Shown: positions 3,239 to 26,438 of the stretch, one piece after another
How the letters are laid out: each line of letters starts with the position of its first letter
Position numbering within the stretch: position 1 is the stretch's first letter
DNA from: Baffinella frigidus
Taxonomy: Eukaryota > Cryptophyceae > Cryptomonadales > Baffinellaceae
DNA: 26,438 nucleotides
NCBI GenBank assembly: GCA_026770585.1
Contig: MU646304.1
Span: 805,252 to 831,689 of the forward strand
Direction: 5' to 3'
Translations under genes and position numbers: made by a program
Notes under the pieces: model-generated
Seen by the model: the letters and a program-made list of their open reading frames with translations, nothing else
What the model was told of the DNA's origin: nothing
Database searches by the model: none

Positions 3239-3356
3239 GAGGGGTACCTCGCTTATAAGAAACGAACCCCCCAAAGGACCCTACAGTAGGGCTATGCTCA
3301 GGGTCCTATGGTGGTCCTAGGGGGGGGGGGGGGTTCTTATGACAGAGGTGCCCCTG
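3239..3356. mobile_element. MITE, CAGGGGTACCTCGCTCAT family (diverged copy)
   Basis: The left end GAGGGGTACCTCGCTTATAA and right end TTATGACAGAGGTGCCCCTG are diverged versions of the family TIR. The interior holds 'accctacagtagggctatg' and a poly-G run. No clear TA duplication remains, so it is probably an older copy. Confidence 0.7.
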
Positions 3357-3914
3357 TGCCAAGCCCACCATCAATTCTATTGCGCAAGGCGTCCATCTAA
3401 AGGATATCTCAGGTCATATTTTGTACAACACCAGGCATTTTAAACCCCTGAATCATGGCTCCAAGCCCCAACAAATCTGAGATACTATCTATTGAGTGCC
3501 GCGACGAAATCCACAAAACTCGAAGCTAGAAATGTGAATATTTTAAAGGTTTTAACTTTACAAGTCCTTTACAAGTGGACCGCTGTGCAGTAATTTTCAC
3601 ACAAATATCGCGTTTGGTCACCTTACTGCGAGATATCCCGCAGTAACGTGACGAAGCCCGCCCGTGACTCGTACAAATATTTACAACCACACATTTAAAA
3701 TGCTCCCCTTTACAGCCTCAAGTGGCAGAGCCGCATAACCTTCACTCGCCCTCCCAACTCAAGTATCTTTATCTTTTGGGTCCGGCGGATGTACCAGGAG
3801 TTACCAGGAATCCGCCAGGGCTTATCCGTCCCGAGGCGGGCCCATCCGCCCCACCTCCAAACGATGAGCATAGTTGAGCTGGGAGAGCGGGTGGCTGGGT
3901 TCGGTGAGCAGCTA
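3357..3914. other. No gene identified; contains one 13-bp-stem hairpin
   Basis: This interval is AT-richer than its neighbours, with no long open frame on either strand. The only clear structure is an imperfect palindrome at 3617-3652: GTCAC-C-TTACTGCG, an 8-base loop, then CGCAGTAA-C-GTGAC. It may be a small element remnant or intron. Confidence 0.5.
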
Positions 3915-5750: not shown

Positions 5751-6082
5751 GGGGCGTTCTGGTCAAACTCTAAAACTCTGCTAAAAAAAAGCTGGCCGAG
5801 GATCGAGTCGCTTTACCGTGAAGGGGGGAGAGGTGGAGGGAGCGGGGGGCTGTGTCTGTCTCTGCAGAACAGCACGCCGCCGCAGAGTGTAGCAGAGCAT
5901 CTCCTGCTGCGCCTTCCCTCTTCTCCAGGCGCAAATTCGAGGCGAGATAGGCAGGCGAGGACAAGGCAGGATTGCCAGGGGCGAGCGGGATCCGCTGGCA
6001 CCACGACCGGGCAATCGAGGCTGGGGGGACGTGGCGGCGGCGTGGACGTAAAGCTGGACATTGCAAGCTGAGACCGGGCGCG

Positions 6083-7144
6083 ATGTGCACGATCTTCAGG
6101 TCGGTTGTCTTCGTGCTGGCTCTCGGCGCCACGTTGCAGCTTCCACCAGGGGCCGGCGATTCGCCGGATCGTGTTGGGGCGCAGGGGCCAGCGTCTGGGG
6201 GGGCACGCGTCTTGGCCGGCACTCGGGGTTGGCGATTGAGGGGGAAGAGGGCGCACGCCTTGCCTCTTGACCTGGCGATTATCGGACGCGAGCGGGGAAA
6301 GGAAGAGCCTTCTACCGAAGAGAGAGGGGGCTCTGCTGAGTCGGTGGAGGAGGGGCGGGGCGGGGCTAGGAGCAAGCTGCACGTTGAGTGCACCACCTGC
6401 GGCAAGAGCTGCTCGACGTCCAGCAACCTGACGGTACATATGCGCACCCATTCCGGCGCCCGCCCCTTCGCCTGCGCCACCTGCGGCAAGGCCTTTTCGA
6501 GGTCCTACAGCCTGAAGGAACACACGCGCATCCATTCCGGCGACCGCCCCTACGCCTGCACGACCTGCTTCAAGGCCTTCTCGACGTCCAGCAGCCTGAC
6601 GTCACACATGCGCACCCATTCCGGCGACCGCCCCCATGCCTGCACTACCTGCGGCAAGGCCTTCGCGGAGTCGAGCAACCTAGAAAGACACATGCGCATC
6701 CATTCCGGCGACCGCCGCTACGCTTGCACCACCTGCGGCAAGGCGTTCTCGACGTCCAGCATCCTAACGGTACACACGCGCAGCCATTCCGGCGACCGCC
6801 CCTACGCCTGCACCACCTGCGGCAATGCCTTCGCGACGTCCAGCAACCTGGCGGCACACATGCGTACCCATAACGGCGATCGCCCCCATGCCTGCACTAC
6901 ATGCGGCAAGGCCTTCTCGCAGTCCAGCAACCTTGCGGTGCACATGCGCACCCATTCCGGCGACCGCCGTCATGCCTGCACCACCTGCGGCATGGCCTTC
7001 TCGAGGTCCGACAGCCTGGATCTACACATGCGCAGCCATTCTGGCGACCGTCCCTACGCCTGCCCCGCCTGCGGCAGGGCGTTCTCGATGTCCAGCAACC
7101 TGGCGAGGCACCTTGTCAAAGTGCACGCTCGCGATCAGGAGTGA
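6083..7144 (+). CDS. C2H2 zinc-finger protein, nine fingers, hydrophobic N-terminus (copy A)
   Basis: The product is 353 residues, a probable sequence-specific nucleic-acid-binding protein. I start at the ATG at 6083 because MCTIF..SVVF.LALGA is shared with copy B, while the frame farther upstream has only non-ATG starts. Residues about 4-20 are strongly hydrophobic, like a signal peptide. Residues 23-97 are a variable, arginine/glycine-rich region. Nine C2H2 fingers then run to the end (CxxC...H3H; the last is H4H) with HSGDRPYAC linkers resembling the classic TGEKPY linker. Finger 1 has Cys where the conserved Phe is expected (GKSCS), and finger 3 has CFKAF instead of CGKAF. The helix position-3 residue is Asn in fingers 1, 4, 6, 7 and 9 and Ser in 2, 3 and 8. 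The TGA is followed in the same frame by a conserved module (7206-7340). Possible upstream exons were not identified. Confidence 0.85.
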   Translation: MCTIFRSVVFVLALGATLQLPPGAGDSPDRVGAQGPASGGARVLAGTRGWRLRGKRAHALPLDLAIIGRERGKEEPSTEERGGSAESVEEGRGGARSKLHVECTTCGKSCSTSSNLTVHMRTHSGARPFACATCGKAFSRSYSLKEHTRIHSGDRPYACTTCFKAFSTSSSLTSHMRTHSGDRPHACTTCGKAFAESSNLERHMRIHSGDRRYACTTCGKAFSTSSILTVHTRSHSGDRPYACTTCGNAFATSSNLAAHMRTHNGDRPHACTTCGKAFSQSSNLAVHMRTHSGDRRHACTTCGMAFSRSDSLDLHMRSHSGDRPYACPACGRAFSMSSNLARHLVKVHARDQE

Positions 7145-7340: not shown

Positions 7341-7371
7341 GTCGCGGTCTGAGATTCCTCTCGACCAAACC

Positions 7372-7600
7372 CTGAACCCGAAGCCCTGAACCCTAAACCC
7401 TAGACCCTAGACCCCAGACCCTAGACCCTAGACCCTAGACCCTAGACCCTGGACCCTGAACCCTGAACCCTAGACCCTAGACCCTAGACCCTAGACCCTA
7501 GACCCTAGACCCTAGACCCTAGACCCCAGACCCTAGACCCTTAACCCTAGACCCGACCATTTACCTTGAACCTCAAACCCTAAGCCCGCAAACCCGAACC
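7372..7600 (+). repeat. CCCTAGA/CCCTAAA array, C-rich on plus
   Basis: About 25 copies of CCCTAGAC variants (first GAACCCTAAACCCTAGACC). This is the one large telomere-like block in the window with the C-rich strand on plus. It sits between module unit 1 and unit 2 of copy A, i.e. in a putative plus-strand intron, so here too the C-rich strand is the sense strand. Copy B has only a short decayed trace (14200-14315). Confidence 0.9.
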
Positions 7601-7836
7601 CAAAACCATAATTATAAACCCTCAGAGCCATCCTCCGCAGCAGCCCGCGTCACGCGCCTCTGACATCGCCGTGCGTGCGTCCCGTGGCCACTCCCCCCAG
7701 ATTGTTTGCTGCTCCACCACGTCGGTACGAGCTGTCTGAGACTTTCCTTGCCAGCGACCCATGCGCTGCTGCACCAGGTTACTTTCCTGTTGATAGAGAG
7801 TGATCGAGTGACCCCTGCCCTGTGCTGCGCCACCAG

Positions 7837-8631: not shown

Positions 8632-8748
8632 CAGGGGTACCTCGCTCATAAGAAACTGCCCCCCCCTTGGACCCTACAGTAGGCCTATGCCTAGGGCTCT
8701 ACGGTGGTCCTAAGGGGGGAGCAGTTTCTTATGAGCGAGGTACCCCTG
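8632..8748. mobile_element. MITE, CAGGGGTACCTCGCTCAT family
   Basis: The ends CAGGGGTACCTCGCTCATAA and TTATGAGCGAGGTACCCCTG are perfect inverted repeats. TG precedes the left end and TA follows the right end. The core 'accctacagtaggcctatgcctagg' is the same as in the other copies. Confidence 0.85.
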
Positions 8749-8824
8749 TAAGGGAAGGCTTTTGGCATAATCGATGTACGCCCGCAGCGAGAATGCACAC
8801 GAACAGCTTGCCCCCTGCTCGCTA

Positions 8825-9134: not shown

Positions 9135-9185
9135 TAGCGGACACGAAAGGCTCCGACGGGTTCGTCGGGGGAATCGTTGAGGATG

Positions 9186-9302
9186 CGGGGGTACCTCGCT
9201 CATAAGAAACTGCCCCCCCCCGAGGACCACCGTAGGGCCCTAGGCATAGGCCTACTGTAGGGTTCTAGGGGGGCGCGGTTTCTTATGAGCGAGGTACCCC
9301 TG
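9186..9302. mobile_element. MITE, CAGGGGTACCTCGCTCAT family, with empty-site paralogue
   Basis: It has the family ends, with one mismatch in the left CAGGGG, and the core in the opposite orientation to the 8632 copy. Flanking sequence on both sides matches 16068-16160, where the element is absent (9137-9185 and 9310-9360 against one continuous stretch). The insertion is therefore directly visible. Confidence 0.85.
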
Positions 9303-9401
9303 TACAACTAGCCCCCCCCCTCCTCCCACACAGCTACGCAGAGATTCCGCGAATCACTGCACCACGGACGACTCAGCGACCGTATGAAAATGTGTTTTGG
9401 A

Positions 9402-10875
9402 TCAGGGTTTAGGGTTCAGGGTTCAGGATCCAGGATTCAGGGTCTAGGATAGGGTTTAGGGTTCAAGGTTCAGGAATTGGGGGTTGGGGTTGAGAGTTGA
9501 GGGATGAGGGTTGAGGGGTGAGGGATGAGGGTTGAGGGTTGAGGGTTCAGAGTTTGCGGTTTAGGGTTTGCGGTTTGAGGTTAGGGTTGAGGGCTGAGGC
9601 TTCAGGGTTCAGGGTTTAGGGTTCAGGGGTGTGGGGTCAGGGTTCAGGGTTTGGAGTGCAGGGTTTACAGTAAGGTTTAAGGTTCAAGGTTCAGGAATTG
9701 GGGTTGAGGTTTGAGGATTGAGGGTTGAGGGATGAGGGGGTTAACCCTTCAAAGGGTTAAGTCTTTAGGTTTGTGGGTTGACGGTTTAGGGTTAAGGGTT
9801 GAGGGTTAGGGGTTTGGGTTGATGGTTGAGAGTTGAGGATTGAGGGTTGCGGGTCCAGGGTTAACGGTTTACTTTTTACTTTTTACGGTTTACAGTTCTG
9901 GATAGGGAGTAAAGAGAAGGGTCAAAGGTTTATTTAGGGTTACGGGTTAAGGGTCAGGGTCAAAGATAAAGTGGTAAAAATGTTTGGTTTAGGGTTACGG
10001 GTGAAGGGTTCAGGGTTCAGGGTTCAGGGTTCAGAAAAGGGTTGACGGTTTGGGGGTTGGGGTTTAGGGTCCAAGGTTCGTGGTATAGGATAGTTCATGG
10101 GATTTAGGGTTTGGAGTTTAGTTTTGAAGGTTTGATGATTCAATATTGGGGTTTAGGATTTAGGGTATTTTCTGTGGGTTGAGTGTTCCGAGTTTGAGGT
10201 TTAGGGTTTGGCAGAGGGTTCATGTTTGAGGGTTCAGGGTTTACGGGGTTTAGCGTTTAACGTGTAGCGTTCAGGTTTTAGAGATTAGGGTCAAGGGTTA
10301 AAGGGTCAGGGTATGGATTTGGGGTTTAGGGTTTAGGAATTGTCTAGGTTTCAGGTTTTAACTTTTAGGGTTTCAGGGTTGATGGTTTAGGGTTTAGGGC
10401 TAGGGTTTGGGTTCCAGGGTTTATGGTTTGCGGTCCAGGGTATAAGGAGTAAGGAGTAGGGTCAAGGGGGGTTTTAAGGTTAGGGGTTAAGGATCAAGGA
10501 TAAAATCGAAAGGGTTTGAGGTTCAGAGTTTAGGGTTTAGGGTTCAGGGTTCAGGTTTCAGGGTGCAAGATATAGGGTTTAGGGTTCAGGGATTAGGGCC
10601 AGAGTTCAGAATTTAGAGTTCAGGGTTTAGGGCTTTGGATTTAGGGTTGAGGAGTTAAGGTTTAGGGTTGAGAATTTAGGGCTTACAAGGGTTTATGGTT
10701 TAGGGGTTAGGGGTGAGGGTTTAGAAGTTAGGGGTTGGGGTTTGTCTAGGCTTCAGGGTTAGGGCTCAGGGTTTTGGGTTTGAGGTTTATGTTTTCGTTT
10801 TTATGATTTAGGGTTCACGGTTTAAGGTTTGTGATTTAGGGTTTGGATTTCAGGCTTGGTGTTGAGGGTTTATGG
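9402..10875 (+). repeat. Degenerate telomere-like block, 1.5 kb
   Basis: Continuous degenerate TTTAGGG units (TTCAGGG, TTGAGGG, TTTACGG and similar), G-rich on plus, with no intact perfect run longer than a few units. It contains no open frame of interest. The unit composition shifts from TTCAGGG-rich to TTGAGGG-rich segments, suggesting patchy local amplification. Confidence 0.9.
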
Positions 10876-11700
10876 TCAGTGCCTTGCAACAAGGCCCCTC
10901 AGGAGGGCTTGGGGCAGCAGCGCATTTTAGGTCCTTGAGGTTTTTCCAACTCCCAACGTAGTCTACATAAAATGCATGCTTTTTTTCGGATGACATCAGG
11001 CCCCTGATTTCCTATCAGGTAGAGGGTGTGCCAGCATTTGTATTTTATTTGTCAAACCCCCCACCCCGTAATTCATTAAAACATGTGATCTCATTTCACC
11101 AAAAGGCTCCAAATCCCAGGGCAAAATGCCTCAAGGAGAACTATATGAGGGCGAAATGACCTAGGCGATGAACGGGCCAGGTTGTTTCAGTAGTAAAAGG
11201 CAATTAGGTACCTGATTCCTGTCTGGAGCTATTGGAGCTATTGGAGCAATTGGAGCCAACGAGGCAAGGGGGGAGAGCGAGGTTTGATGAGTTACCCAAC
11301 ACGACCGCTGCAGAGAGATTGATAATTCATTGCCAAACAACCAGCGTCAGCACCGCACATACCACGCATTGTGCCACTTACTGTACACCGTGTCGGCCGA
11401 TCATACGAGCATTTTCCGGATGGATTCTAACTCCACCTCCGACCGCTGCACGCCATGAGGAGAGGCAGTGGTTCCGGCATTCCTTCTTGGGGGGGGGGGG
11501 GGTTGGATCTTTATTCAAGTGTGTACAGCTACACGACGACACCTTCCTCTACTTAAAACCTGAGTGGAGGCATTCGCAAAAGTCAATTCCGACAAATTCC
11601 CTTCAAATTCTATCATCTTTAAAGCGTGTCTCGCTCCGAGGCGGGCCCAACGAACTTGTTGAGGGGGCGGAGGCTGAGGACGAGAGCTGCTTGCGCTCAG
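10876..11700. other. Mostly repeat-derived spacer, no firm gene
   Basis: It begins with a diverged 'aggtcc.t.aggttctt' repeat (10928-11010), then anonymous sequence and a tandem 'ggagctatt' run (11226-11260). The block at 11268-11320 ('gcgaggtttgatgagttacccaacacgaccgctg') resembles 1588-1625. A 192-codon frame from 11232 starts at TTG and crosses these repeats plus a poly-G run, so I do not accept it as a gene. Confidence 0.45.
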
Positions 11701-12661: not shown

Positions 12662-12994
12662 GGGGCCGTTCTGGTCAAACTGAGCTAAAAAAAGCTGGCA
12701 GAGGATCGAGTCGCTTTATCGCGAAGGGCTGAGAGGTGGAGGGAGTGGGGGGCTGTGTCTGTCTCCACAGGACGGCGCGCCGCCGCAGAGTGCAGGAGAA
12801 CATCCCATGCTAGGCCTTCCCTCTTCTCCCGGCGGAAATTCGAGGCGAGAAAGGCAGTGGAGGACAAGGCAGGGGACGACCAGGGCCTGAGCGGGATCCG
12901 CTGGCCCCACAACGGGAAAACCGAGGCGGGCGGGGGCGCGAGGCGGCGTGGACGTGAAGCTGGACACGGGGAACAAAGACCAAGGCTGGACGGG

Positions 12995-13969
12995 ATGTGC
13001 ACGATCTTCAGCTCGGTCGTCTTCCTGCTGGCTCTCGGCGCGACGTTGCAGCTTCCACCATTGGCCCGCGCTTCGCTGGATCTTGCTGTGGCGCAGGGGC
13101 AAGAGTCTGGGGGGGCATGGGCCGGTTTTCGGGGCGGGCCATTGTGGGGGAATCTGGCGCAGGCCTTGCCTCTTGATCTTGCGATTGTCGGACTCGAGCG
13201 GGAAAGGGAAGCGCCTCCTACCGAAGGAGCGAGTGGGGGCTCTGTTGTGTCGATCAAGAAGGGGCGGGACGGGGCGAGGAGCAAGCTCGACTTTGCGTGT
13301 ACGACCTGCGGCAGGGCCTTCCCGTCGTCCAGCAATCTAACGAGACACACGCGCATCCATTCCGGCGCGCGCCCCTACAACTGCACCACCTGTGGCAAGG
13401 CATTCTCGACGTCCGGCAAACTGACGGTTCACACGCGCACCCATTCCGGCGACCGCCCCTACGCCTGTACCACCTGCGGTAAGGCCTTCTCGACGTCCAG
13501 CCACCTGAGGACACATATGCGCACGCATTCCGGCAACCGCCCCTACGCCTGCACCATCTGCGACAAGGCCTTTTCGGCGAACGGCAACCTGGCGGTACAC
13601 ATGCGCATCCATTCCGGCGACCGCCCATACGCCTGCACCACCTGCGGCAAGGCCTGCTCGACATCCAGCCACCTAACGTACCACATGCGTACCCATTCCG
13701 GCGCGCTCCCCTACGCCTGCACCACTTGCGGCAAGGCCTGCTCGACGTCAAGCCACCTGACGGTACACATGCGCAGCCATTCCGGCGACCGCCCCTTCGT
13801 CTGCACCACCTGCGGCAGGGCCTTCTCGCAGTCAAGCCACCTGACCTACCACACGCGCGCCCATTCCGGCGACCGCCCCTACGCCTGCGCCACCTGCGGC
13901 AAGGGCTTCTCACAGTCCAGCGGCCTGGCGAGGCACTGCGACACGGTGCACGCTCGCGATCAGGAGTGA
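12995..13969 (+). CDS. C2H2 zinc-finger protein, eight fingers, hydrophobic N-terminus (copy B)
   Basis: The product is 324 residues, starting at the ATG at 12995, which is conserved with copy A (MCTIF.SVVFLLALGATLQL). The frame upstream has only GTG starts. A hydrophobic N-terminus (residues 4-20) and a variable linker to about residue 93 precede eight C2H2 fingers with HSG[DAN]RPYAC linkers; the last finger is H4H. Fingers 5 and 6 have Cys at the conserved Phe (GKACS). Compared with copy A, helix position 3 is mostly His (fingers 3, 5, 6, 7) instead of Asn, so the predicted base preference differs. The linker before finger 6 is SGALPYAC, lacking the Arg. The protein probably acts in DNA binding if nuclear; the hydrophobic leader makes localisation uncertain. 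The TGA is followed in frame by module unit 1. Confidence 0.85.
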   Translation: MCTIFSSVVFLLALGATLQLPPLARASLDLAVAQGQESGGAWAGFRGGPLWGNLAQALPLDLAIVGLEREREAPPTEGASGGSVVSIKKGRDGARSKLDFACTTCGRAFPSSSNLTRHTRIHSGARPYNCTTCGKAFSTSGKLTVHTRTHSGDRPYACTTCGKAFSTSSHLRTHMRTHSGNRPYACTICDKAFSANGNLAVHMRIHSGDRPYACTTCGKACSTSSHLTYHMRTHSGALPYACTTCGKACSTSSHLTVHMRSHSGDRPFVCTTCGRAFSQSSHLTYHTRAHSGDRPYACATCGKGFSQSSGLARHCDTVHARDQE

Positions 13970-15282: not shown

Positions 15283-15562
15283 GATCTGGGGGAAGTGTAA
15301 AGGAATGCAGAGGAGAAGCATCAGCCTCGGGAGCTTGTACATGAACACTTCACCTTTCGGCCCCTAGTGGCTTGCGCGGTCGTGGTCGGCTGGATTCTGC
15401 TCTGCAACTCACTTGATTTCGCGTTTTTATGCACATCCAGGAAGTTTCATCAATTCAGCACACGACAAGGACCCCTTCTGTGGCGCTTTTATTTGAGCGC
15501 CGGTTTCGTTGAAGTGTCTTTCCATTTCCCCGCTTGAATTCACCCGTGTCTCGCATGTGTTA
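15283..15562. other. No gene identified
   Basis: Unique sequence between duplication copy B and a MITE pair. No long open frame, no recognisable repeat; possible 3' flank of the duplicated genes. Confidence 0.4.
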
Positions 15563-15682
15563 CAGGAGTACCTCGCTCACCCCCTTCCCCCTCCTCTATT
15601 ACCGTCACATTTCTCTACACATGTAGGCGTGGACCTACTGTGGGGTGGCGGATGGCGCTTCCTCATGAGCGAGGTACCCCTG
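15563..15682. mobile_element. MITE, CAGGGGTACCTCGCTCA family (diverged interior)
   Basis: The ends CAGGAGTACCTCGCTCA and TGAGCGAGGTACCCCTG are flanked by TA at 15561-15562 and 15683-15684. The interior is largely unlike the other copies. Confidence 0.75.
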
Positions 15683-15684
15683 TA

Positions 15685-15805
15685 CAGGGGTACCTCGCTC
15701 AGAAGAAACTGCCCCCCCCATAGGACCACCACAGGTCCCTAGCTAGGCATAGGCCTACTGTAGGTTCCTAGGGGTTGGCGCTACCTCATGAAAGAGGTAC
15801 CCCTG
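15685..15805. mobile_element. MITE, CAGGGGTACCTCGCTCA family
   Basis: CAGGGGTACCTCGCTCAGAA and the right end AAAGAGGTACCCCTG are flanked by TA (15683-15684, shared with the preceding element, and 15806-15807). The core 'ctaggcataggcctactgtagg' is present. Confidence 0.8.
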
Positions 15806-15807
15806 TA

Positions 15808-16360
15808 TTGCAAGGGCTTGGCCGAGACGTTCGGTCGCGTGCGCGAGAACCTGTTTGAAACAACATCCCAGCGGTTTCGTCTCGCAAGAATCGGTCGCAC
15901 TGCATAGTACACATGTTGTATTCACAAGCCCCCCCCAGGTGGTTGCATTTCCTGCTTGGTTGGGTTGTAAGAGTCCTGCGGGCAGCGGGATCTGGTGTTC
16001 TGCAGTCCACGGCAGCAACTGCACACATTCTTACTGGATAGTAAAACCTGTTTGGGACACGCAAGACTCTGGAGGGTTCGTCGAGGGCATCGTTGAGGGT
16101 GCAAACCCCCCTCCCTCCTCCCACACAGCTACGACGGGATTCCGTGAATCACTGCTCCTCGGGCATATCCGATATGTCTCCTCGGACAAATCGGATGCCC
16201 TCCCCCCCCTCCTTACCCCCCCGCCTCTCCCTGCCCCCTACGTCCTTCCCTGCCCTAAGCTCACGCTCATGGCAGCGGTCGAGCTATGTTACAGGTGTGG
16301 CACATTGACACACCTGCCCACCACGCCGTAGGGACGGTACGCCTATGCGTGTGGAGCCTC
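15808..16360. other. Paralogous low-copy segment, coding status unresolved
   Basis: 16068-16160 is an uninterrupted version of the sequence split by a MITE at 9186. A pyrimidine-rich tract ending CCCACACAG at 16129 looks like a plus-strand acceptor and is followed by LRRDSVNHC. The paralogue reads LRRDSANHC with two synonymous arginine codon changes, hinting at an exon. Overlapping frames on the minus strand (for example TLNDALDEPSRVLRVPN) are also open, so the strand cannot be decided. Confidence 0.3.
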
Positions 16361-16487
16361 TCAGTCTTGCGCACGCGCGCGGCCCGCAAGGAGGCCACTC
16401 TTGTGCTTCTTGCGAGGCGTCTCGTCTGAGACGATCGGGCGGTAGTTTCCCGGCTGCACTGGCTGTCCGTCGACCGGCTGCTTCATC
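16361..16487 (-). CDS. Last exon: basic C-terminal tail after BRCT 2
   Basis: Acceptor ATGGTGCAG, one base, then MKQPVDGQPVQPGNYRPIVS and DETPRKKHKSGLLAGRARAQ, Asp and TGA. It joins in phase 2 to ...YLKEF(L) of the preceding exon. The tail has a PRKKHK cluster that could serve as a nuclear localisation signal. The overlapping 85-codon frame in this region is a shadow. Confidence 0.65.
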
Positions 16488-19400
16488 CTGCACCATGTGC
16501 GCCACCACTTTCGTCACATTCCCTGCCCCAAGACCTTTCAAGCTTTGCTCGCGCGTCTTTCCACAATCCTGATCCCAGTCTTACAAGACCTTCACGCAAG
16601 GAAATACATGGTGGCCATGTTGGTGTCGATCCGGAACAAACGCAACTTCTGCCCTCAGCGTGTTCGTGTGGGTGGCTCTCGGAGCCTTGGAGCAAGCGAC
16701 GCGACCTCAGGCGGGAAAAGGACGGGTGGAAGCATTGTTGGATGCGTTGAATGCAAGGAGCAAGAGGGGGTGGGGTTGTCGATGGGGCAAGGTACAAGAA
16801 CTCTTTGAGGTAGGCTCCCGTGACGAGTTCGACTCCGCCTGGAGCGCAGCGCCGGAGCTGCGAAACCAGCGCCGCGCCCGCCGCCTGTACACGTCACCAC
16901 ACCCGAGAGTCAGGCCACACGCCGTGGCTCCAATTCTCGCGCCCCCGCCTCATGCACGCATCACCGCCAGAGCGCATCAACCGCCCGGGTGGCTGGCGCC
17001 AGCGTGCGCTCCCACCGAGACATGCCTGTAAAGAGGCTACCAGACTGTCAGCATGTCAGCTGGCAGGCATCGTCCGTACCTGGGAGCCATCGGCGGCAAC
17101 GACGTGGGTGGCGCCAACCGAGAGCGCGCGCTGGACCACGTCCGAGGCCCCGAATCCCGCCGCCTGCATCAGCACGGTCTCGCCGCCCCCCGCGAGTACC
17201 ACCATCGCCAGGATCTCGGGGGGTGGTTTCGTGTCCGGGGAGAGGAGGAAGCGCTGCCCGTGGAAGGGCCCGACGCCGTGCTTTTTCCAGTAGGTGCGCC
17301 ACCGTTTCGGGGCGCCGTGCCAGATGCCTGAGTCTTGGTCCACCTTGCGCGGGTTGTGTCACTCGTGCGCCTGGTTTAGGGTTTAGAGTTTAGGGTGTGG
17401 GGTTCAGGGTTAAAGTTTGAGGGTTAAGATTTGGGTTTGGGTTCCAGGGCTCAGGGTTTCGGGTTTCGGGTTTCGGGTTTCGGGTTTCGGGTTCACGTTC
17501 TCCTTGGGCCACTCGAAGCGCCCGCCCGACTTCAGAAAAGTCGTCTGCCTGCCGCCCCAAGTCGTCTTCCTGCCCCCCCACACTCCAGATCAGCGCCCTC
17601 GTCTTACACTGGGAAGCGCAAGAGGAGGGGGAGGGGACACAAGGGTGGGATGTTGGTGTACGCTGGACGACAGACACCACGCTAGGGCTCTACCTAGCAG
17701 CGTACAGACACTGGCTGGCTAGCGAAAGGGTACGGTGGTGCGGTGGTGGTGGCTGGAAGGGAGGGACGTACAGGATCCACTTGCCCGCAGCGCAGGCGCA
17801 GAGCACCGTCTCAGTCATGCGGAACTCCCTGACGACCATGTGCGTCGCGGCGGGCATGTAGTGGTGTGTGTAGACCGCGCGCGCCCCCAGGTCCCGCACC
17901 ATCTGCGCCTTCATCGCACGGTCCACGCTGTCCCACCCCCCTCCGAACATCACCATCTTGCTGTGGTTGCTCTTGGTGGGGCGAGTCGGCGCGCGCTGCG
18001 ACGCCACGTTGTTCGCGTTCTCCGGCACCGGACAGGCGTAGAGGCGCGCGTGGTGACCGATGTAGAGGTGCGCTTTGTTAGAAGAAACAACGTCCACTGT
18101 GTCCTCACGGTTCTCATTCTCGTCCACCTAGGATTGGAGTTTTAAGGTTTGGAGTTTGGGGTTTTCGGGTTGAGGGTTGAGGGTTTAGGGTTTAGGGTTT
18201 GGAGTTAAGGGTTGTGGATTTTGAGATTGAGAGTTGAGGGTTAAGGGGTTGGGGTTTAGGGCTTCGGAATTTTGGGATTTAGGGTTTGAGGAAATTCAGG
18301 GTTTAGGGTTTAGGGTTTATGGTTGAGGGTTGAGGGTTTAGAGTTGAGGGGTTGGGGTTTGAGCGTGTAGGGTTGAGGGTTTGGGGTTTGAGGTTGAGGG
18401 TTTTAGGGTTTATGGGGTAGAGGTGAGGGTTTAGGGTTGATGGTTTGAGGGTTTGAGGTTGAGGATTTAGGGTTTATGGTTTAGGGTTTGGGGTTTGGGG
18501 TTTGGGGTTTGGGGTTTGGGGTTTGGGGTTTAGGGTCCAGGGTTTGGGGTTTAGGGTTCAGGGTTCAGGATTTAGGGGTTCGCCTGCAGGGTTAGGGTTG
18601 AGGGTTGAGGGTCTAGGGTTCAGGGTTCGGGGTTTAGACTGTAGGGTATAGGGTTTAGGGTGTAGGGTTGAGGATAGGTCAGGGTTTAGTGTTCAGGGTT
18701 TAGGATTTGATGGTGAAGGGTTTAGAGTTTGAGGTTTCTGGTTGAGGGTTTCAGGGTTTATAAACCGTGGTAGGGTTTAATGTGGTAGGGTTTAGGGTTT
18801 AGGGTTTGGGGGTTTGGGGTTTAGGGTTTGGGGTTTAGGGTTTAGGGTTTAGGGTTTAGGGTTTGAGGGTTTGGGGTTTTGGGTTTTGGGTTCGGGGTTT
18901 GGGGTTTGGGGTTCAGGGTTCAGGGTCAGGGTTTAGGGTTTAGGGTTTAGGGTTTAGTCTGTAGGGTTAGGGTTTAGGTTATAGGGTCTAAGTTTGAGGG
19001 TTTAGAGTTCAGGCTATAGGGCATAGGGTTTAGGGTTGAGGGTTGAGGGTAGGTTAGGGTTTAGTGTTGAGCTTTCAAGGTTTAGGGTCCACCTTGCCAG
19101 TGCGGTAGAAGACCACGGTGGCCCACCTTCGGGACACCGTGTCGGTCGTGGTCTGGAAGGTAGCGATGCCGTTGATGATCCCCTGTTCGAGGAGGTCAAG
19201 GTTAGCCTAAGAAGGCTAACTCTTGCAACGGACGCGGTTGATTCTAGCCGAAGGCTTCAAAGTCAACACGGCTGATTCTAGGAGAAGGTGAGAGCAGGCG
19301 CAAGGTGCAAGGTGCAAGAAGATTTGCTGGAGGGCGTGGCCTACTTTGTAGCGGGGCGTGGCCGTCTTGCACATGCCCGTCACCTTGCCCCGGTACCAGC

Positions 19401-22288
19401 CCTCCTTGTTCTCCCCCTTTGCGCTGTACCAGACCGCGACGTCGGCCCCGTCCGTCACGTGCTTCAGAGTGAACAAAGGCAGGGCCTTCTTCCTGTAGCA
19501 GTCCCCGAGTGTCAGGCCGTGGTACGACGTGGGCGCGCCGCGCTCGGTAGCGGTCCGCCGGGTACGAAGCACGTTCTCCATCCTACCCTCCGCCCCGCCC
19601 TCCTGCTCCGCGGCCGCGTTGAGCACTGGCACGCCAGGCCCCTTGTCCCCACGCCCGCCGCGCGTCGCCGCCACAGGCTTCTTGCTACCGCCAGGACTCG
19701 TAGACGTGCCACCCTGAGCGGCTGCGGGCGGCGTGACTGCTGGAGACGCGGTGACCCGCTGCACGCCGCGAGTCGCCTTATGTACCTCATTATCGCTATC
19801 ACCCTCTTCATCTTCCCCCCCCCCCTCCCCCCCCGACCACTCAGAGCTCTCCGGACCGCTGGACTCCTCCTCCTCCTCCTCCTCCTCCTGTGCTGCCGCC
19901 GCGTCGTGCTTTCCTAGCGCGAGAGGAGACTGATCGAGTGTGTGGATCATTGCGCCCTCCTCCTCGTCGGGGTCCTGGTTTAGAGGGTCAAGGATTGGAA
20001 CTGTAGGGTTTAGGGTTTAGGGTTTAGGATTTAAGGTTTAGGGTTTAGGGTTTAGGGTTTAGGGTTCAGGGTTTAGGGTTTAGGGTTTAGGGTTTAGGGT
20101 TTGGTGTTTAGGGTTTAGGGTTCAGGGGCGGGTGGGAGGGGGGTACCGAGTCCTGCTCCATGTCCGAAGCAGAGGAGAATTGTGCCTCCATCTTGTTCTC
20201 GGCGTCTTCGTCGGACTCCTGATGTAGCGTTTAGGGGTTAGGGGTTATGGTCCATGGGTTAGGGTTGGGGGGGTTGGGTTTAGGGCCTGCAGGGAGGTCC
20301 TGGCGCTGTCGTCGTCCTCCCCCCTCTCCTCATCCTCCTCATCCTCCACTACCGGCGCGTCCAGTTTTCCCGCCGCGCGAGGCGACTGGCGTGCAGCCGG
20401 AGAAGACTTGGGCAAGGGTGCTGTCTGCGCCTTCCCAGATCCCACCCCTACCAACTTGCCGCTCGCTCTCGCGGGGCCGCTGCTGGAGTTTTGGGTTTCG
20501 GGTTCATAATTTATGTTTTAGGGTTCAGGTTTCAGGTTTCAGGGTTCATGGTTCAGGGTCCAGGGTTCATGGTTCAGGGTTCAGGTTTCAGGGTTCAGGG
20601 TTCAGGGTTCAGGGTTCAGGGTTCAGGGTTCAGGGTTCAGGGTTCAGGGTTTAGAGTTTGTGGTTCAGGGTTTAGAGTTTGTGGTAGTCTTCTTGCGATG
20701 TGATTGCATGCATGCACGCCAGATGCACACTGGCAGGGCGCCGCCCTGAGGCGGGCCCATCCGTCCCAAGGCGCGCCTATACCTCGCTACAGGGTTACCT
20801 CGCTCACAAGACGCCCTCCCCCCCCAGGACCATCACAGGAACTAGGCATAGGCTCGCTGCAGATTCTTAGGAAGGGGCGACGTCTTACTATCTTAACACG
20901 CCCTGCAACACAACCAACCCCTAAATCCTAAAGCAGGATTGACGTCAACTGACACCATTCAATGCTCCTGTTATGCAATGCGCGGTGAACCGCAGAGGCA
21001 CCGTGGTTTCGGAGTGCAGGCCTGTTCAGTGAAAGACACCTCTCTCTTTCACAATCCGTAGAACTGCTCTGCTCCAAGATGTCACACGACATGTGGACTA
21101 CGAAGGTTTCGGGACCCTGCATACGGGGGGTAACGTGAACAAATTTGCACCAGACAAGACCTCAGAGTTCATTGTCTCAGAACAAGTCGACTTTTGAATG
21201 GTCCATAGTCCACCCTTTGATACAAGGTCCGTAGTCCACCCCTTTGATACAAGGTCCGCAGTCCACCCTGTCTGGCGAGTGTTTGATACTCATCTGGAAC
21301 GAAATCACCATAACCAACTTTAGGCAAATGTGCACTTGTGCTCTGGCCGGTTTGGATGGTAAGGGTGTGAGGTGTAGGGTTTAGGGATGAAGGTGTATGG
21401 TTTAGGGTGTAGGGTGTGGGGTGTAAGGTGTAGGGTTTAGGGATGAGGGTTTTAAGGTTGAGGATTTAGAGATTAGGGTTCAGGGTTTATGGTTTATGGA
21501 GTAGGGTTTAGGGTTTGGAGTTTTGGGTTAAGGGTCCAGGGTTTAGGGTTTGGGGTTAAGGGTTTAGGGTTTGGGGTTTAGGGTTTACGGTTGAGAGTTT
21601 AGGGTTTAGGGTTTAGGGTTTAGGGTTGAGGGTTTAGGGTTTAGGGTTTAGGGTTTAGGGTTTGGGGTTTAGGGATTAGGGTTTAGGGTTTAGGGTTTGG
21701 GGTTTGGGGTTTGGGGTTCAGGGTGTGAGGTTTACGGTTTAGGGTTTAGGGTTCAGGGTTTAGGATTCAGGGTTCAGGTTTCAGGGTTGAGGGTTGACGG
21801 TTGAGAGGTAAGGGTTTGCGGTTTAGGGTTTGGGTTTTAGAGTTAGGGTTGAGGGTTTAGGGTTTAGGTTTTGGGGTGTAGGATTTGATGTTTAAGGTCA
21901 AGGGTTAAGGTTTGAGGGTTGAGTGTTGAGGGTTTAGAGGTTAATGTTGATAATTCAGGGTTGAGGTTTTAGGGTGTAGGGTGTAGGGTTCAGAGTTTAG
22001 GGGTTAGGCTTTTGGGTTCGGTATTGTGGGTTGAGGGTTCAGTATTTGGGGTTTAGAGTTTAAAGTTTAGGTGTGGGGTTTAGGGCTTCGGGGTTCAGGG
22101 TAAGGGTTTGGGGTTGAGGGAAGAGAGTTCAGGAAGTAGGGGTTAGGGTTTAGGATGCAGGCATTAAGATGTATGGTTTGGTGTATAGGGTTTGTAGGTT
22201 GGGTTCGGGTTTTGGGATTTATGGGGTAGGGTTTAGTGTTTAGGGTTTAGGGTTGTTGGTTCAGGGATTAGGGTTTGGGTTCATGGGT

Positions 22289-22320
<32 letters not shown>

Positions 22321-23271
22321 GGTTTGCGGTTCAGGGTTTAGGGTTTAAGGTTTAGAGTTTAGTGTAAGGTTTCAGGGGTTTGGGTTGTGGATTTAGGTTT
22401 TAGGTTTTAGTGTTTAGGGTGTAGGCCTTAGGGTTTAGGGTTGAGGGTTCAGGGTCTGAAGTTTAGGGTTCGTGGTTCAGTGTTCATGGGGTAGGGTTAA
22501 GGGTTGAGGGTTGAGGGTTTAGTTTGTAGGGTTTAGTTTGTAGAGTTTAGTGTTTAGTGTCAAGGGTTTGGGGGTTGGGTGGTTAGGTTTTGGTGTTTAG
22601 GGGTGAGGGTTTGGAAGGTAGGGTTGAGGGTTTGGGGAGCAGGCATTCGCGTGTGGTGTTCAGGGTTGAGGTTTTGGAGTTTGGGGTTCAGGGTCAATGG
22701 TTCATGGGGTAGGTTTTGGGTCAAGAGTTTGGGTTTCAGGGTTTAGGGTTCTTCGTTTGAGGTTTAGGGTTGAGGGTATAGTGGTCAGGGTTCAGGGTTT
22801 AGGGTGTAGGCATGCAGGTTTAGGTTTTTGGGTTGAGGTTTATAATTTAGGGTTTAGGGTTAAGGGTTTAAGGTTTGGGGTGTAGGGGTTAGGGTTTAGG
22901 GTTGAGGGTTTAGGTTTCAGGGTTTTATGGTTTAGGGTTTAGGGTTGAGGGTTGAGGGTGCAGGGTTTAGCGTTGAGGATTGAGGGTTGAGGATTTGGGC
23001 TTGAGGTTTTGGGGTTTCGGGTTTAGAGTTCAATTTTGAGGGTTCAGGTTTTAGGGTTTAGGGTCGAGGGTTTAGGTTTTAGGGTTTAGGGTTCAGAGTT
23101 TGGGGTTTAGGGTGTGGGCATGCGGGTTTAGGGTTCGGGGTTTAGGTTTCAGAGTTTAGGGTTTTGGGTTTAGGGTGTAGGATTTAGGATTTGGGTTTAG
23201 GGTTTGGGGTGTAGTGGCTCGGGTTTAGGGTTAGGGTTTAGGGTTTCGGGTTTAGGGTTTGGGTTTGGGTT

Positions 23272-23302
<31 letters not shown>

Positions 23303-25987
23303 CGTTTCAGGGTTTAGGGTTTAGGGGTTCTGGTGTAGGCCTGAGGGTGTAGGGGTTAGGGTTGAGTGTTCAGGATTTGGGCTTGAGGGTTTAGGGTTTA
23401 AGGTTCGGGGTTAAAGATGTTGGGGTTATGGTGTGGGGTTCAGGGTTCAGGAGTCAGGGTGTACGGTTCAGGGTGTCACGGTGTAGGCCTGAGGGTTTAG
23501 AGGTTATGATTTAGGGTTTATGATTTAGGGTGTAGGGTTTCGGGTGTAGGGTTTCGGGTTTTGGGTCTGGTGTAGGGTTTAGCGTTGAGGGTTTAGGATT
23601 TGGGCTTGAGGGTTTAGCGTTCAGGGTTGAGATTGTAGGCACGAGGGTTTAGGTGTTAGTCTTTAGGGTTTGGTATTTATGTTGTAGGGTTTAGGGTTCA
23701 GTGGTTAGGGTTTGAGGTGTAGGGCTTAGGGTTTTGGGTTTTGGCATGAGGGTTAATGGTTGAGGGTTTACGGTTGAGAATTTAGGGTCTAGGGTTTAGG
23801 GTTGATGGATTCGGTTGTAGGTGTCAGGGTTTAGGGTCTAGGGTTGAGGGATAAGGGTTTAGGCTTGAGGTTTTAGGTTTGAGGGTTGAGGGTTAAGGGT
23901 ATTGGGGTTAGGGTGTGCGTTCAGGGTTCAGGGGTTCGGGTGTAGGGTTTCGGGTTTAGGGTTCAGGCATGAGGGTTAAGGGTTTAGGGTAGAAGGTTTA
24001 GAATTTAGGGTTCAGGGTTCAGGGTTTCTGGGAATGGGTTCAGGTTTAGTTGCACGGTTTAGTGTTTAGGGTTTAAGGTTTAGGGTTTAGTGTTTAGTGT
24101 TTAGGGTTTAGGGTTGAAGGTTGAAGGTTGAAGGTTTAGGAATTTGGGTTTAGGGTGTACAATTCAGGGTTCAGCGTTGAAGGTTGAGGATTCAGGGTTG
24201 AGGAATTAGAGTTTACAGTCTAGGGTTTCGGGTTCGGGGTCGATGGGGTAAGGTTTAGGGTTTAAGGTGAAGGGTATAGGGTTTAGAGTTCACAATTTAG
24301 AGTTTAAGGTTAAGGGTTCAGGCGTTAGAGGTGAGGGTTTGGGGTTTAGGGTTTAGGGTTTTGAGTTCCGGGTGTAGGGTCGAGGTTTTAGGGTTTAGGG
24401 TTTTGGGTTGAGAGTTTGGGGTTTAGTGTTAAGGGTTTGGGGTTGAGGGTTAAGGTTTGAGGGTTTAGGGTTTAGGGTTTGGGGTTGAGGGTTTAGGGTT
24501 TTTTATTCAGGGTTCAGGGGTTAAGGGTAAAGCTGTAGGGCGGAGGATGAGGAGTTGAGGGTCGTCTAGGTTTTATGGTTTTGGGTTGTCTAGGGTTTAA
24601 GATGCAGTGTTTAGGGTGTAGGGTATATGGTTGAGGGTTCAAGGTTAAGGGTGTAGAGTTTGGGGTTGAGGGTCAGGGGTTAGTTTTCAGGGTTTCGGGT
24701 TTGGGGTTTAGGGTTCAGGGTTAAGGGTCGAGAATTGAGGGTTGAGGGTTTAGGGTTTAGGGATCAGGGGTTTATTATCAAGGGTCCAGGTTTTAGGGTT
24801 AAGGGTGGAGGGTGTAGGGTGGAGCGTTGAGGTTCAGGGCTGAGGTTTGAGGGTTGAGGGTTGAGGGGTGAAGAGTCCAGAGTTCAGCTTCTAGGGTTTG
24901 GGGTTTTGGGGTCATGGTGTGGTGTTGACGGTTTAGGGTTTCGGGTGTAGGGTTCAGGGTTTAGGGTGTATGCATTAGGGTGTAGGGTTTGGGGTTGAGG
25001 GTTTAGGGTTTAGGGTTTAGGGCCTGGGGTAGAGAGTCCAAAGTTGAGGGTTTAGGGTTTAGGATTTAGGGTGTAGGGTTCAGGGTTTAGGGTTTAGGGT
25101 TTCGGGTGTGCATACCCGTTTCCCATGATTTTCCAATTGAAGTTGGCTCCGTAGTTAACCAAAAGCTGCTCATGGGATATTGGAATTAGAACGAGGGAGG
25201 TCACGAGGAGGCCACGAGGTAGATTGTGGGGTAGGGCACAAGACTCAAGCTTCTTGTTCTTCATTGCTCTCAGCCAAACAATGCGTGTGCCTACGTATCC
25301 CCGCTTGGAGGATCAGTTCAACAGAAAAGCTCAAAATGGTCACTCGCAAGCTAGCAAGGTTATCGAGTTTCAATTTGTGGAGCAGCCTCCCAGCAAACAT
25401 GCTGCAAGAATCCAGAAGAATTTGGGCAAATCTAGAAGAAACTAGAAGAATCGAGAAGAGTCTAGATGAATCAAGGTTTGTGTCAGCGGTCTGGTAGAGG
25501 GACCAGGCATCTCGAAGCTGAACAAGGGAAACTTCTCTCAGCTGGGAATAGGGTCTATGGTTTAGGGATCAGGGTTTTAGGATGAGGGTTGAAGGTGTAA
25601 TGTGTAGAGTGTAGGTTTTATGGTTTAGGGTGTGGGGTTTAGGGTTTATTTATGGTTTAGGATTTGGGGTTTGGGGCACCTCGGCCCTGGGAAGAATATC
25701 CTTGATTGTGATCACCTGACCTATTCGAGGTTTACGGTTCACGGTTTACGGTTTAGGGGTGAGGGTTTAGGGTTTGGGGTTGAGGGTTTAAGGTTGAGGG
25801 CTGAGGGTTCAGGGTTTAAAGTTTGGGGTTCAGAGTTGAGGGTTTCAGGTTTAGGGTTTAATTTTGAGGGTTCAGGGTTTATGTTTAAGAGTTAGGGATT
25901 AGGGTTTGGGTTTTACGGACCACAATGTGTGGGTTGAAGAGGTTGTCGTACGTCTCCACGAATTCGCAGTTGGCCTCCTTCCCGGTA
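16361..25987 (-). CDS. Multi-exon SET / Tudor-like / tandem BRCT protein, 5' end outside window
   Basis: Twelve minus-strand exons join in one frame with no internal stop. In order these are 25987-25917, 25720-25680, 25168-25116, 20482-20287, 20218-20147, 19974-19345, 19206-19093, 18127-17772, 17548-17497, 17343-17080, 16884-16796 and 16487-16361. The 2065 bases are one leading base plus 688 codons including TGA. The product reads: C-terminal part of a SET domain, roughly 320 residues of acidic and low-complexity linker, a Tudor-like segment, BRCT 1, BRCT 2 and a basic tail. SET domains are protein lysine methyltransferases; Tudor plus tandem BRCT is the reader layout of 53BP1/Crb2-type DNA-damage mediators. 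A nuclear chromatin role is inferred. Ten introns are GT-AG and one is GC-AG. The weakest link is the 4.6-kb intron joining the SET exons to the rest; the phases agree (2 to 2), but two adjacent genes remain possible. Confidence 0.6.
16796..16884 (-). CDS. Exon: end of BRCT 2
   Basis: Acceptor GTACAG, then AAGAALVSQLRRCAPGGVEL and VTGAYLKEF, ending TT|GTACCT in phase 2. The VELVTGAYLKEFL stretch fits the last strand and helix of a BRCT domain, although the usual Trp of that helix is Tyr here. Reading through the donor would give a proline/serine-rich extension that looks non-coding, which supports splicing. Confidence 0.7.
17080..17343 (-). CDS. Exon: start and middle of BRCT 2
   Basis: 88 codons, phase 0 at both ends: acceptor GCGCAAG|GTGGAC, donor CCCAG|GTACGG. 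It begins VDQDSGIWHGAPKRWRTYW, then GPFHGQRFLLSP (first BRCT strand). It continues with ILAMVVLAGGGETV (helix and Gly-rich turn) and ends with ALSVGATHVVAADGSQ (strand with the THVV motif). An in-frame TGA lies 15 bases upstream of the acceptor, so the exon cannot start at the repeat boundary. Confidence 0.75.
17374..17495 (+). repeat. Telomere-like repeat inside BRCT intron
   Basis: TTTAGGG and TTTCGGG units (the latter tandem near 17457-17490) fill most of the 153-bp intron between the exons at 17548-17497 and 17343-17080. The C-rich strand is sense. Confidence 0.85.
17497..17548 (-). CDS. Small exon linking BRCT 1 and BRCT 2
   Basis: Acceptor GCGGCAG, one base, then QTTFLKSGGRFEWPKEN and a donor AAC|GTGAAC. 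It supplies the final BRCT helix after the conserved GKWIL of the preceding exon. An alternative pairing (phase 0, donor TAC|GTCCCT and acceptor CAG|ACGACT) gives nearly the same protein with Tyr instead of Gln. A near-duplicate 16-mer (ggcagg.agacgactt) sits across the acceptor, so both CAG sites are duplicated. Confidence 0.6.
17772..18127 (-). CDS. Exon: end of Tudor-like region and most of BRCT 1
   Basis: Acceptor CAATCCTAG|GTGGAC, then VDENENREDTVDVVSSNKAH. About residues 57-118 form BRCT 1: MVMFGGGWDSVDRAM, then VRDLGARAVY, ATHMVVREFRMTETVLCACA and GKWIL. The ATHMVV strand and GKWI tryptophan are hallmarks of the fold. The donor is ATCCT|GTACGT (phase 2). The exon is free of stops and bordered on the 5' side by telomere-like repeat. 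Confidence 0.75.
18128..19092 (+). repeat. 965-bp intron made almost entirely of telomere-like repeat
   Basis: Degenerate TTTAGGG/TTTGGGG/TTGAGGG units run from just inside one splice site to just inside the other (about 18140-19086 on plus). On the sense strand it begins GTGGACCCTAAACC and ends CCAATCCTAG. The octamer AGGTGGAC spans both junctions (plus 19087-19094 and 18122-18129). Confidence 0.8.
19093..19206 (-). CDS. Exon: Tudor-like region, middle
   Basis: 38 codons, phase 0 at both ends: acceptor CTTCTTAG, donor GGCAAG|GTGGAC. It reads ANLDLLEQGIINGIATFQ and, near its end, RRWATVVFYRTGK. The V.FYRTGKVD pattern with the next exon resembles a beta-strand pair of a Tudor/SH3-like barrel. 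The 61-codon frame reported on this strand in another phase is a shadow. Confidence 0.65.
19345..19974 (-). CDS. Exon: acidic linker and start of Tudor-like domain
   Basis: 210 codons, phase 0 at both ends: acceptor TAAACCAG, donor TACAAA|GTAGGC. The first 60 residues are highly acidic (DPDEEEGA, a run of eight Glu after AAAAQ, and EDEEGDSDNE), followed by a Ser/Pro/Gly-rich stretch. The last 35 residues, GADVAVWYSAKGENKEGWYR then GKVTGMCKTATPRYK, fit the first strands of a Tudor-like domain (W/Y..GKV pattern). The stretch QSPLALGKHDA echoes QSPRAAGKLDA in the exon at 20287-20482. Confidence 0.7.
19996..20135 (+). repeat. Telomere-like repeat inside intron
   Basis: Nearly perfect TTTAGGG units occupy the centre of the 172-bp intron between exons 20218-20147 and 19974-19345. 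This is one of the least degenerate arrays in the window. Confidence 0.9.
20147..20218 (-). CDS. Exon: acidic linker
   Basis: 24 codons, phase 0 at both ends: acceptor TACATCAG, peptide ESDEDAENKMEAQFSSASDM then EQDS, donor GACTCG|GTACCC. It is flanked by telomere-like introns on both sides (68 bp and 172 bp). Confidence 0.65.
20219..20286 (-). other. 68-bp GC-AG intron with telomere-like interior
   Basis: The sense strand runs from CTGCAG|GCCCTAAACCC to CTACATCAG. No GT donor keeps the acidic frame open here, and the GC donor is in phase 0, matching the next exon. GC-AG introns occur in many eukaryotes and are frequent in dinoflagellates (established). Confidence 0.5.
20287..20482 (-). CDS. 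Exon: basic then acidic linker
   Basis: Acceptor AACTCCAG (phase 2), then SGPARASGKLVGVGSGKAQT, a proline-rich stretch, QSPRAAGKLDAPVVEDEEDE and ERGEDDDSARTSLQ, to a GC donor. The phase-2 acceptor is compatible with the phase-2 donor of the SET exon at 25116, giving ...KIMGNGSGPARASG. There is no ATG in this exon, so it is not a first exon. No domain is recognised; it is likely disordered. Confidence 0.6.
20490..20690 (+). repeat. TTCAGGG-type telomere-like array
   Basis: Tandem TTCAGGG units, nearly perfect over 20578-20650. The 135- and 70-codon plus-strand frames here (GSGFRVQGSGFRV type) are translated repeat. It is the 3' end of the large intron on the minus strand. Confidence 0.9.
20790..20890. 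mobile_element. MITE, CAGGGGTACCTCGCTCA family, decayed right end
   Basis: The left end CAGGGTTACCTCGCTCACAA and core 'ctaggcataggctcgctgcag' are recognisable. The right terminal repeat is lost beyond CGTCTTACTATC. TA lies one base removed from the left end. Confidence 0.6.
21201..21271. repeat. 26-27-bp tandem repeat, 2.7 copies
   Basis: The unit gtcc.tagtccaccc.tttgat + acaag occurs at 21201-21226 and 21227-21253, and partly from 21254. Copies differ at a few bases. Confidence 0.8.
21360..25108 (+). repeat. 3.75-kb degenerate telomere-like block, intronic
   Basis: Uninterrupted TTTAGGG-derived sequence, G-rich on plus, with variants TTGAGGG, TTCAGGG, TGTAGGG and TTTGGGG changing in patches. 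No MITE or unique sequence interrupts it. It lies between the SET exons and the linker exons, so if these form one gene it is intronic, with the C-rich strand as sense. Confidence 0.9.
25116..25168 (-). CDS. Exon: end of SET domain
   Basis: Acceptor CCATGAG (phase 0), then QLLVNYGANFNWKIMGN, donor GG|GTATGC (phase 2). QLLVNYG matches the conserved final SET motif (ELL.[ND]YG) that contributes the catalytic tyrosine. It joins in frame to the preceding small exon ending DILPRAE. Confidence 0.65.
25169..25679. other. Intron between SET exons, no other gene
   Basis: It contains unique sequence (25169-25550), including a GAAGAATC-like short repeat near 25410-25460, then telomere-like repeat (25555-25672). 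The 105-codon plus-strand frame overlapping 25180-25497 has no recognisable features and starts inside this intron, so it is not accepted. Confidence 0.45.
25680..25720 (-). CDS. Exon: SET domain, middle
   Basis: Acceptor CGAATAG, two bases completing an Arg codon, then QVITIKDILPRAE, donor GAG|GTGCCC in phase 0. Together with its neighbours it reads IVVRQVITIKDILPRAEQLL and VNYG, the I.V...DI..GE.LL..YG order of SET domains. The usual Gly before Glu is Ala here. Confidence 0.65.
25732..25912 (+). repeat. Telomere-like repeat inside SET intron
   Basis: TTTACGG, TTTAGGG and TTGAGGG units fill the 196-bp intron between exons 25987-25917 and 25720-25680, C-rich strand sense. Confidence 0.85.
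25917..25987 (-). CDS. Exon: SET domain, core Asn-Cys motif region
   Basis: Acceptor TCGCGCAG, one base, then TGKEANCEFVETYDNLFNPH and IVV, donor GTCC|GTAAAA in phase 1. ANCEF corresponds to the SET motif [P/A]NCE[FW], which follows the NH.C signature. The upstream NH motif should lie on the preceding exon, which I could not place. Confidence 0.65.
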
Positions 25988-26032
25988 CTGCGCGAAAATG
26001 TAGAGAATTGGGTGTAAGGCATGTAGTATGAA

Positions 26033-26082
26033 GCATTTAGTGTGAAAATTGTTTTTAACAATGAATGATTCACACTAAATGC
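26033..26082. repeat. Perfect 14-bp-stem hairpin
   Basis: GCATTTAGTGTGAA (26033-26046) pairs exactly with TTCACACTAAATGC (26069-26082) around a 22-base AT-rich loop that itself can pair (AATTGTT/AACAAT). It lies in the putative intron upstream of the first SET exon and may be a miniature element. Confidence 0.7.
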
Positions 26083-26149
26083 AAAGTGTTCATCGTAAAA
26101 CAAAGAGCTTGGAACCTGTGAGCCAGATTTCTGCTCTTTTCGCCCCACA

Positions 26150-26438
26150 GACCTACACCCCTAGCCCCTGACCCCTAAACTATGAACCCCAAAACATAAA
26201 ACCCCAACACCTGCACATTGCACCCTAAACCCCAGACGCGATATGTAACGGCGCCTGCCACTAGGATGCCACCGCGGCTGGGTTTATAGTTTAGGGGGTA
26301 GGATTCACGATTTGGGGTTTAGGGTCCAGGGTTCATGGTTGAGGAATTACAATATGGGGTTGGGGTTTTTAAGGTTTATTGTATAGGGTTTAGGGTTCAG
26401 GGTGTTGGGTTGAGGATTTGGGGTTTGGGGTTTGGGGT
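26150..26438. repeat. Telomere-like repeat in both orientations at the right edge
   Basis: 26150-26235 has the C-rich strand on plus (CCCCTAAAC, CCCTAAACC) and 26281-26438 has the G-rich strand on plus, separated by about 45 bp of unique sequence. The upstream exons of the SET gene are expected at or beyond this region, but none was identified with confidence. Confidence 0.75.

Follow-up and report, generated by a model that had tools for sequence, protein, structure and literature searches.

We find that the minus-strand coding segments between 25987 and 16361 of the window – the whole 26,438-nt stretch of Baffinella frigidus DNA that was analysed – probably (at a probability of roughly 0.7) belong to two adjacent same-strand cryptophyte genes rather than to one fused gene. 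The upstream gene would end in a SET domain, with its first part beyond the window, and would stop soon after ELLVNYGANFNW. The downstream gene would encode an acidic low-complexity front and, at the C-terminus, a tandem BRCT resembling those of SLF1 and TopBP1 (BRCT7/8). We infer the boundary between them, and likewise a nuclear role and a partner for the BRCT protein: like SLF1, which docks on RAD18, it would likely dock on a partner where chromatin is damaged or replication has stalled.

Rebuilding the minus-strand chain from 25987 to 16361 gave 12 exons that encode 675 amino acids and a stop with consistent phases (Table 1). An earlier note on this DNA had placed 12 exons with matching phases, which we reproduced, and had counted 688 codons, which we did not: the rebuilt model has 675, and some boundaries differ. 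Ten of the 11 introns are GT-AG and intron 4 is GC-AG. Intron 3 measures 4633 nt, while the other ten range from 68 to 965 nt and total 2965 nt. Telomere-like heptamers were counted in 7 of the 11, intron 3 among them. The acidic linker described in the earlier note is present on inspection.

Table 1. Coordinates of the coding segments and repeats discussed in the text.
Feature	Position	Strand	Basis and remarks
Candidate extra SET exon (VPSSLFYDEHFAFSVNHS, NHS motif)	26060..26115	-	splice signals, phase, Pfam gain
SET exon 1 (TGKEANCEFVETYDNLFNPHIV)	25921..25987	-	rebuilt chain, Pfam, PDB search; donor GTCCGT weak-looking
SET exon 2 (VITIKDILPRAE)	25680..25715	-	rebuilt chain, Pfam
SET exon 3 (LLVNYGANFNWKIMGNG)	25116..25165	-	rebuilt chain, acceptor/readthrough check
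Degenerate TTTAGGG-type array	21371..25107		~534 units at 67% matches; separates the SET exons from the acidic ones
Degenerate copy of dispersed palindromic element, in gap	20780..20871		repeat comparison
Exon 4, acidic low-complexity	20287..20482	-	GC donor; a single open phase from 20482
Exon 5, acidic	20147..20218	-	rebuilt chain
Exon 6, acidic linker and beginning of so-called Tudor block	19345..19974	-	rebuilt chain, homologue alignment
Exon 7, so-called Tudor block, without family match	19093..19182	-	rebuilt chain, Pfam, PDB
Exon 8, end of so-called Tudor block and BRCT1 core	17772..18127	-	rebuilt chain, homologue, PDB
Exon 9, BRCT1 end	17497..17548	-	rebuilt chain, homologue
Exon 10, linker between the BRCTs (APKRWR..) and beginning of BRCT2	17080..17343	-	rebuilt chain, homologue, PDB
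Exon 11, BRCT2	16796..16884	-	rebuilt chain, homologue
Exon 12, BRCT2 end, basic tail and stop	16361..16487	-	rebuilt chain, homologue
Dispersed palindromic element, ~120 bp around GAGCGAGGTACCCCTGTA	1819-1940, 3240-3358, 8632-8749, 9182-9303, 15561-15808; also 3.8-4.0 kb		

Of 7998 candidates scored against the C-terminal 396 residues, one alone reached E<=0.01: the 637-amino-acid Baffinella frigidus protein T484DRAFT_1759852, the sole homologue. This protein is identical at 163 of 250 positions (65%) to model residues 416-664, which cover most of exons 8-12. The alignment supports the splicing of these exons; the exon 9/10 junction is the least certain, because it falls at a 4-residue gap. 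Identity of 65% also implies that the homologue and the window gene represent different loci or different species. A second alignment, to acidic linker residues 205-272 at 42%, is of low complexity. The size given for the Baffinella genome is 535 Mbp (PMC9756366).

Consistent with the earlier note's claim of a BRCT pair, this homology through exons 8-12 and matches to solved structures establish a real tandem BRCT. A two-sequence profile built from the window protein and T484DRAFT_1759852 matched 28 PDB sequences at E<=10, led by SLF1 (2e-12) and TopBP1 BRCT7/8 (3e-8), then KKT4 (1.2e-5) and BARD1 (6e-4); 53BP1 and Crb2 were absent from the 28. Searched alone, T484DRAFT_1759852 matched TopBP1 at 1.6e-10 and SLF1 at 4.1e-9. 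In Pfam, the BRCTs of the window protein score 15.7-16.5 bits for BRCT (cut-off 21.3) and 14.5-15.8 for BRCT_2 (cut-off 27.3), and the BRCT of T484DRAFT_1759852 passes its cut-off (25.1 bits, E 2e-5). Pfam matched no further BRCT in the 675 residues, and no relative was found in the viral contigs and prokaryote genomes scanned. An AlphaFold model of T484DRAFT_1759852 from a 3-row alignment was of too low quality to support a fold search (mean pLDDT 42.6).

The Tudor domain proposed in the same note was not borne out. For the 146 residues that separate the linker from BRCT1, Pfam gave 0 families at E<=10 and PDB no sequence better than E 0.62; T484DRAFT_1759852 has no counterpart that aligns with them. 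WYRGKV followed by VVFYRTG is Tudor-like by eye, no more, and such a fold could exist without a sequence match. A database protein is identical to part of the exon-6 ORF region (19216-20016, minus strand), in a record whose longest contig is 1008 bases, so a public metagenome may also hold the organism that carries this ORF. The exon-6 ORF, searched by itself as a protein, returned only the window's own ORF, and Rfam gave no match at gathering scores.

The SET fragment that had been recognised at the other end of the chain is real but partial. On their own, exons 1-3 score 21.4 bits against Pfam SET (16.7 bits within the full 675-residue model), under the curated cut-off of 22.4, in an alignment to positions 70-105 of its 105. 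Adding a candidate exon at 26115-26060 raises the score to 27.4 bits, so that SET membership by this cut-off depends on that exon. It is flanked by a CAG acceptor before 26115 and a GT donor after 26060, fits the phase of exon 1 and ends in VNHS. From these signals we regard it as a likely further SET exon, tentatively, since a hairpin-like inverted repeat overlaps it and 0 Pfam families match the ORF there when left unspliced. Translations of 25988-26438 held, by eye, no other SET-like pieces. An alternative exon 1/exon 2 junction, under which the SET score falls to 13.6 bits, was rejected. Exon 1 starts inside the domain, so the gene that contains it begins further upstream, and the first part of the SET domain lies outside the window.

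Among PDB alignments that span all three SET exons, the best was to the SET domain of KMT5A/SETD8 (PH...I..DI...ELL..YG), at a non-significant E of 0.53. Crov588, the nominal top PDB match at 5.8e-8, was dismissed as a relative, since its score adds up numerous weak hits to a repeat protein. A homologue search with the SET region considered proteins of about 371-1181 amino acids and gave 4 candidates, none at E<=1. The search thus gave no sign of the SET part as a stand-alone gene, which counts against the two-gene reading. The missing homologue, the visibility of only the C-terminal part of the domain, the weak-looking exon 1 donor and the replacement of D by N in the ELxxDY motif would also suit an intact BRCT gene with a decaying or partial SET copy, a pseudogene or an assembly junction, in its vicinity. 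We consider this very improbable, given that ~69 joined residues run without stop or frameshift and that the Pfam cut-off is passed with the candidate exon.

The earlier note had joined the SET and BRCT parts from 25116 to 20482, and it is this join that the analysis did not support. A single gene, in which a 4.6-kb repeat-filled intron would link a SET methyltransferase to an SLF1-like tandem BRCT, is in our estimation unlikely. Its frame is continuously open and its parts share strand and order, but the phase match carries little weight. In exon 4, 11 AG positions (bare AG, with acceptor strength unscored) keep the frame open and cover all three phases, so a compatible acceptor is available for any donor phase and the join says little. 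Exon 3, with the donor at 25115 left unused, reads six more whole codons (YAHPKP) and then a stop, which favours two genes. The 4633-nt gap is ~5 times the next longest intron, and 3.7 of its 4.6 kb is degenerate TTTAGGG repeat. It also holds a dispersed palindromic element whose other matches all lie outside the gene, a weak argument for two genes given how little sequence the other introns offer.

The homologue argues in the same direction. T484DRAFT_1759852 consists of a Met, an acidic low-complexity stretch and the tandem BRCT, with no match to SET; this architecture, together with the SLF1 and TopBP1 matches, makes two genes likelier. For the fusion it can be said that this homologue is a single gene model whose start may be wrong, and so is little evidence. 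Repeat-filled introns also occur elsewhere in the chain: intron 7 is filled with a telomere-like array and its downstream exon is supported by homology, which counts against reading the repeat in the gap as a boundary between genes. Third-position GC likewise fails to separate the SET part (37 of 50 codons, against 511 of 625 for the rest; Fisher p 0.19) and leaves the join undecided by composition; corrected for amino acids, the SET part is lower (35 against 39.6 +/- 2.6).

Exon 4 has no in-frame ATG, and the first in-frame ATGs downstream of exon 3, at model residues 126 and 136, are in exon 5. If the BRCT gene is separate, it must therefore begin in exon 5 or 6 or in an additional 5' exon. 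Residues 1-200 of T484DRAFT_1759852 reached at best E 0.44 against the window unmasked and gave no match masked; no rival 5' exon was therefore found, which counts against two genes. Against the fusion, in turn, no SET-BRCT protein was noticed in the accessible portions of the open-licence literature.

The gap also contains, at about 21280-21350 on the minus strand, a peptide KVGYGDFVPDE with possible splice sites on both sides. Its GYGDFVP stretch resembles a potassium-channel filter, a reading that we rejected after it matched 0 Pfam families and a single PDB sequence, a ribosomal protein, at E 0.2. Degenerate TTTAGGG-type arrays fill introns and gaps at 21371-25107, 20004-20127, 18141-19088, 17373-17493, 9404-10876 and 521-1048. 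In those inside the gene, the sense strand overwhelmingly carries the C-rich form (CCCTAAA), and the array at 7367-7607 has the opposite orientation. Elsewhere in the window, two plus-strand C2H2 zinc-finger ORFs, at 5951-7144 and 12689-13969, carry 9 and 8 zf-C2H2 (Pfam) stretches and are apparently duplicates.

The tandem BRCT is a module of SLF1/TopBP1-like type in an apparent cryptophyte. More would follow from a single cryptophyte protein that combines a SET methyltransferase – its nearest, if weak, likeness being to the H4K20 enzyme KMT5A – with an SLF1-type tandem BRCT, a combination that we consider improbable. Such a fusion would physically tether a histone methyltransferase to a damage adaptor, and we know of no SET methyltransferase fused to one. 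In animals, SLF1 reads H4K20 in its unmethylated form on new chromatin; the fusion would therefore bring the enzyme that ends the unmethylated state to stalled forks and act as a self-timing writer.

Both Crb2 and 53BP1 carry their tandem BRCT at the C-terminus, as does the window protein, and TopBP1 BRCT7/8 is also a C-terminal tandem BRCT. The parallel that had been drawn with Crb2/53BP1 lacks support: the block between linker and BRCT1 has no Tudor match, and neither protein is among the 28 PDB matches of the two-sequence profile at E<=10. The SLF1 tandem BRCT, the best PDB match, aligns over BRCT1 and on through the linker with its APKRWR into the beginning of BRCT2; TopBP1 BRCT7/8, the second best, aligns over BRCT1 only and is the best match for T484DRAFT_1759852. 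In SLF1, the phosphoserine of RAD18 is bound by Thr13, Gly14 and Lys56 (PMC10598736). The position of Lys56 is taken by Thr 487 in the window model and by a Lys in T484DRAFT_1759852; Thr13 lies outside the printed alignments, and the strand reads FGG in the window protein and LAG in T484DRAFT_1759852. The change at Lys56 makes phosphopeptide binding by the window copy doubtful. SLF1 also has an ankyrin domain, within its C-terminal Nse5-like region, that reads histone H4 (H4K20me0) (PMC11551741). No such region was found in the window protein, whose BRCT pair is C-terminal, and no ankyrin repeat in the 675-residue model passes its cut-off (Ank_5, inside BRCT2, scores 12.9 bits against 27). Judged by sequence likeness, the BRCT pair is unlike that of 53BP1/Crb2 and is of the SLF1 / TopBP1-BRCT7/8 kind.
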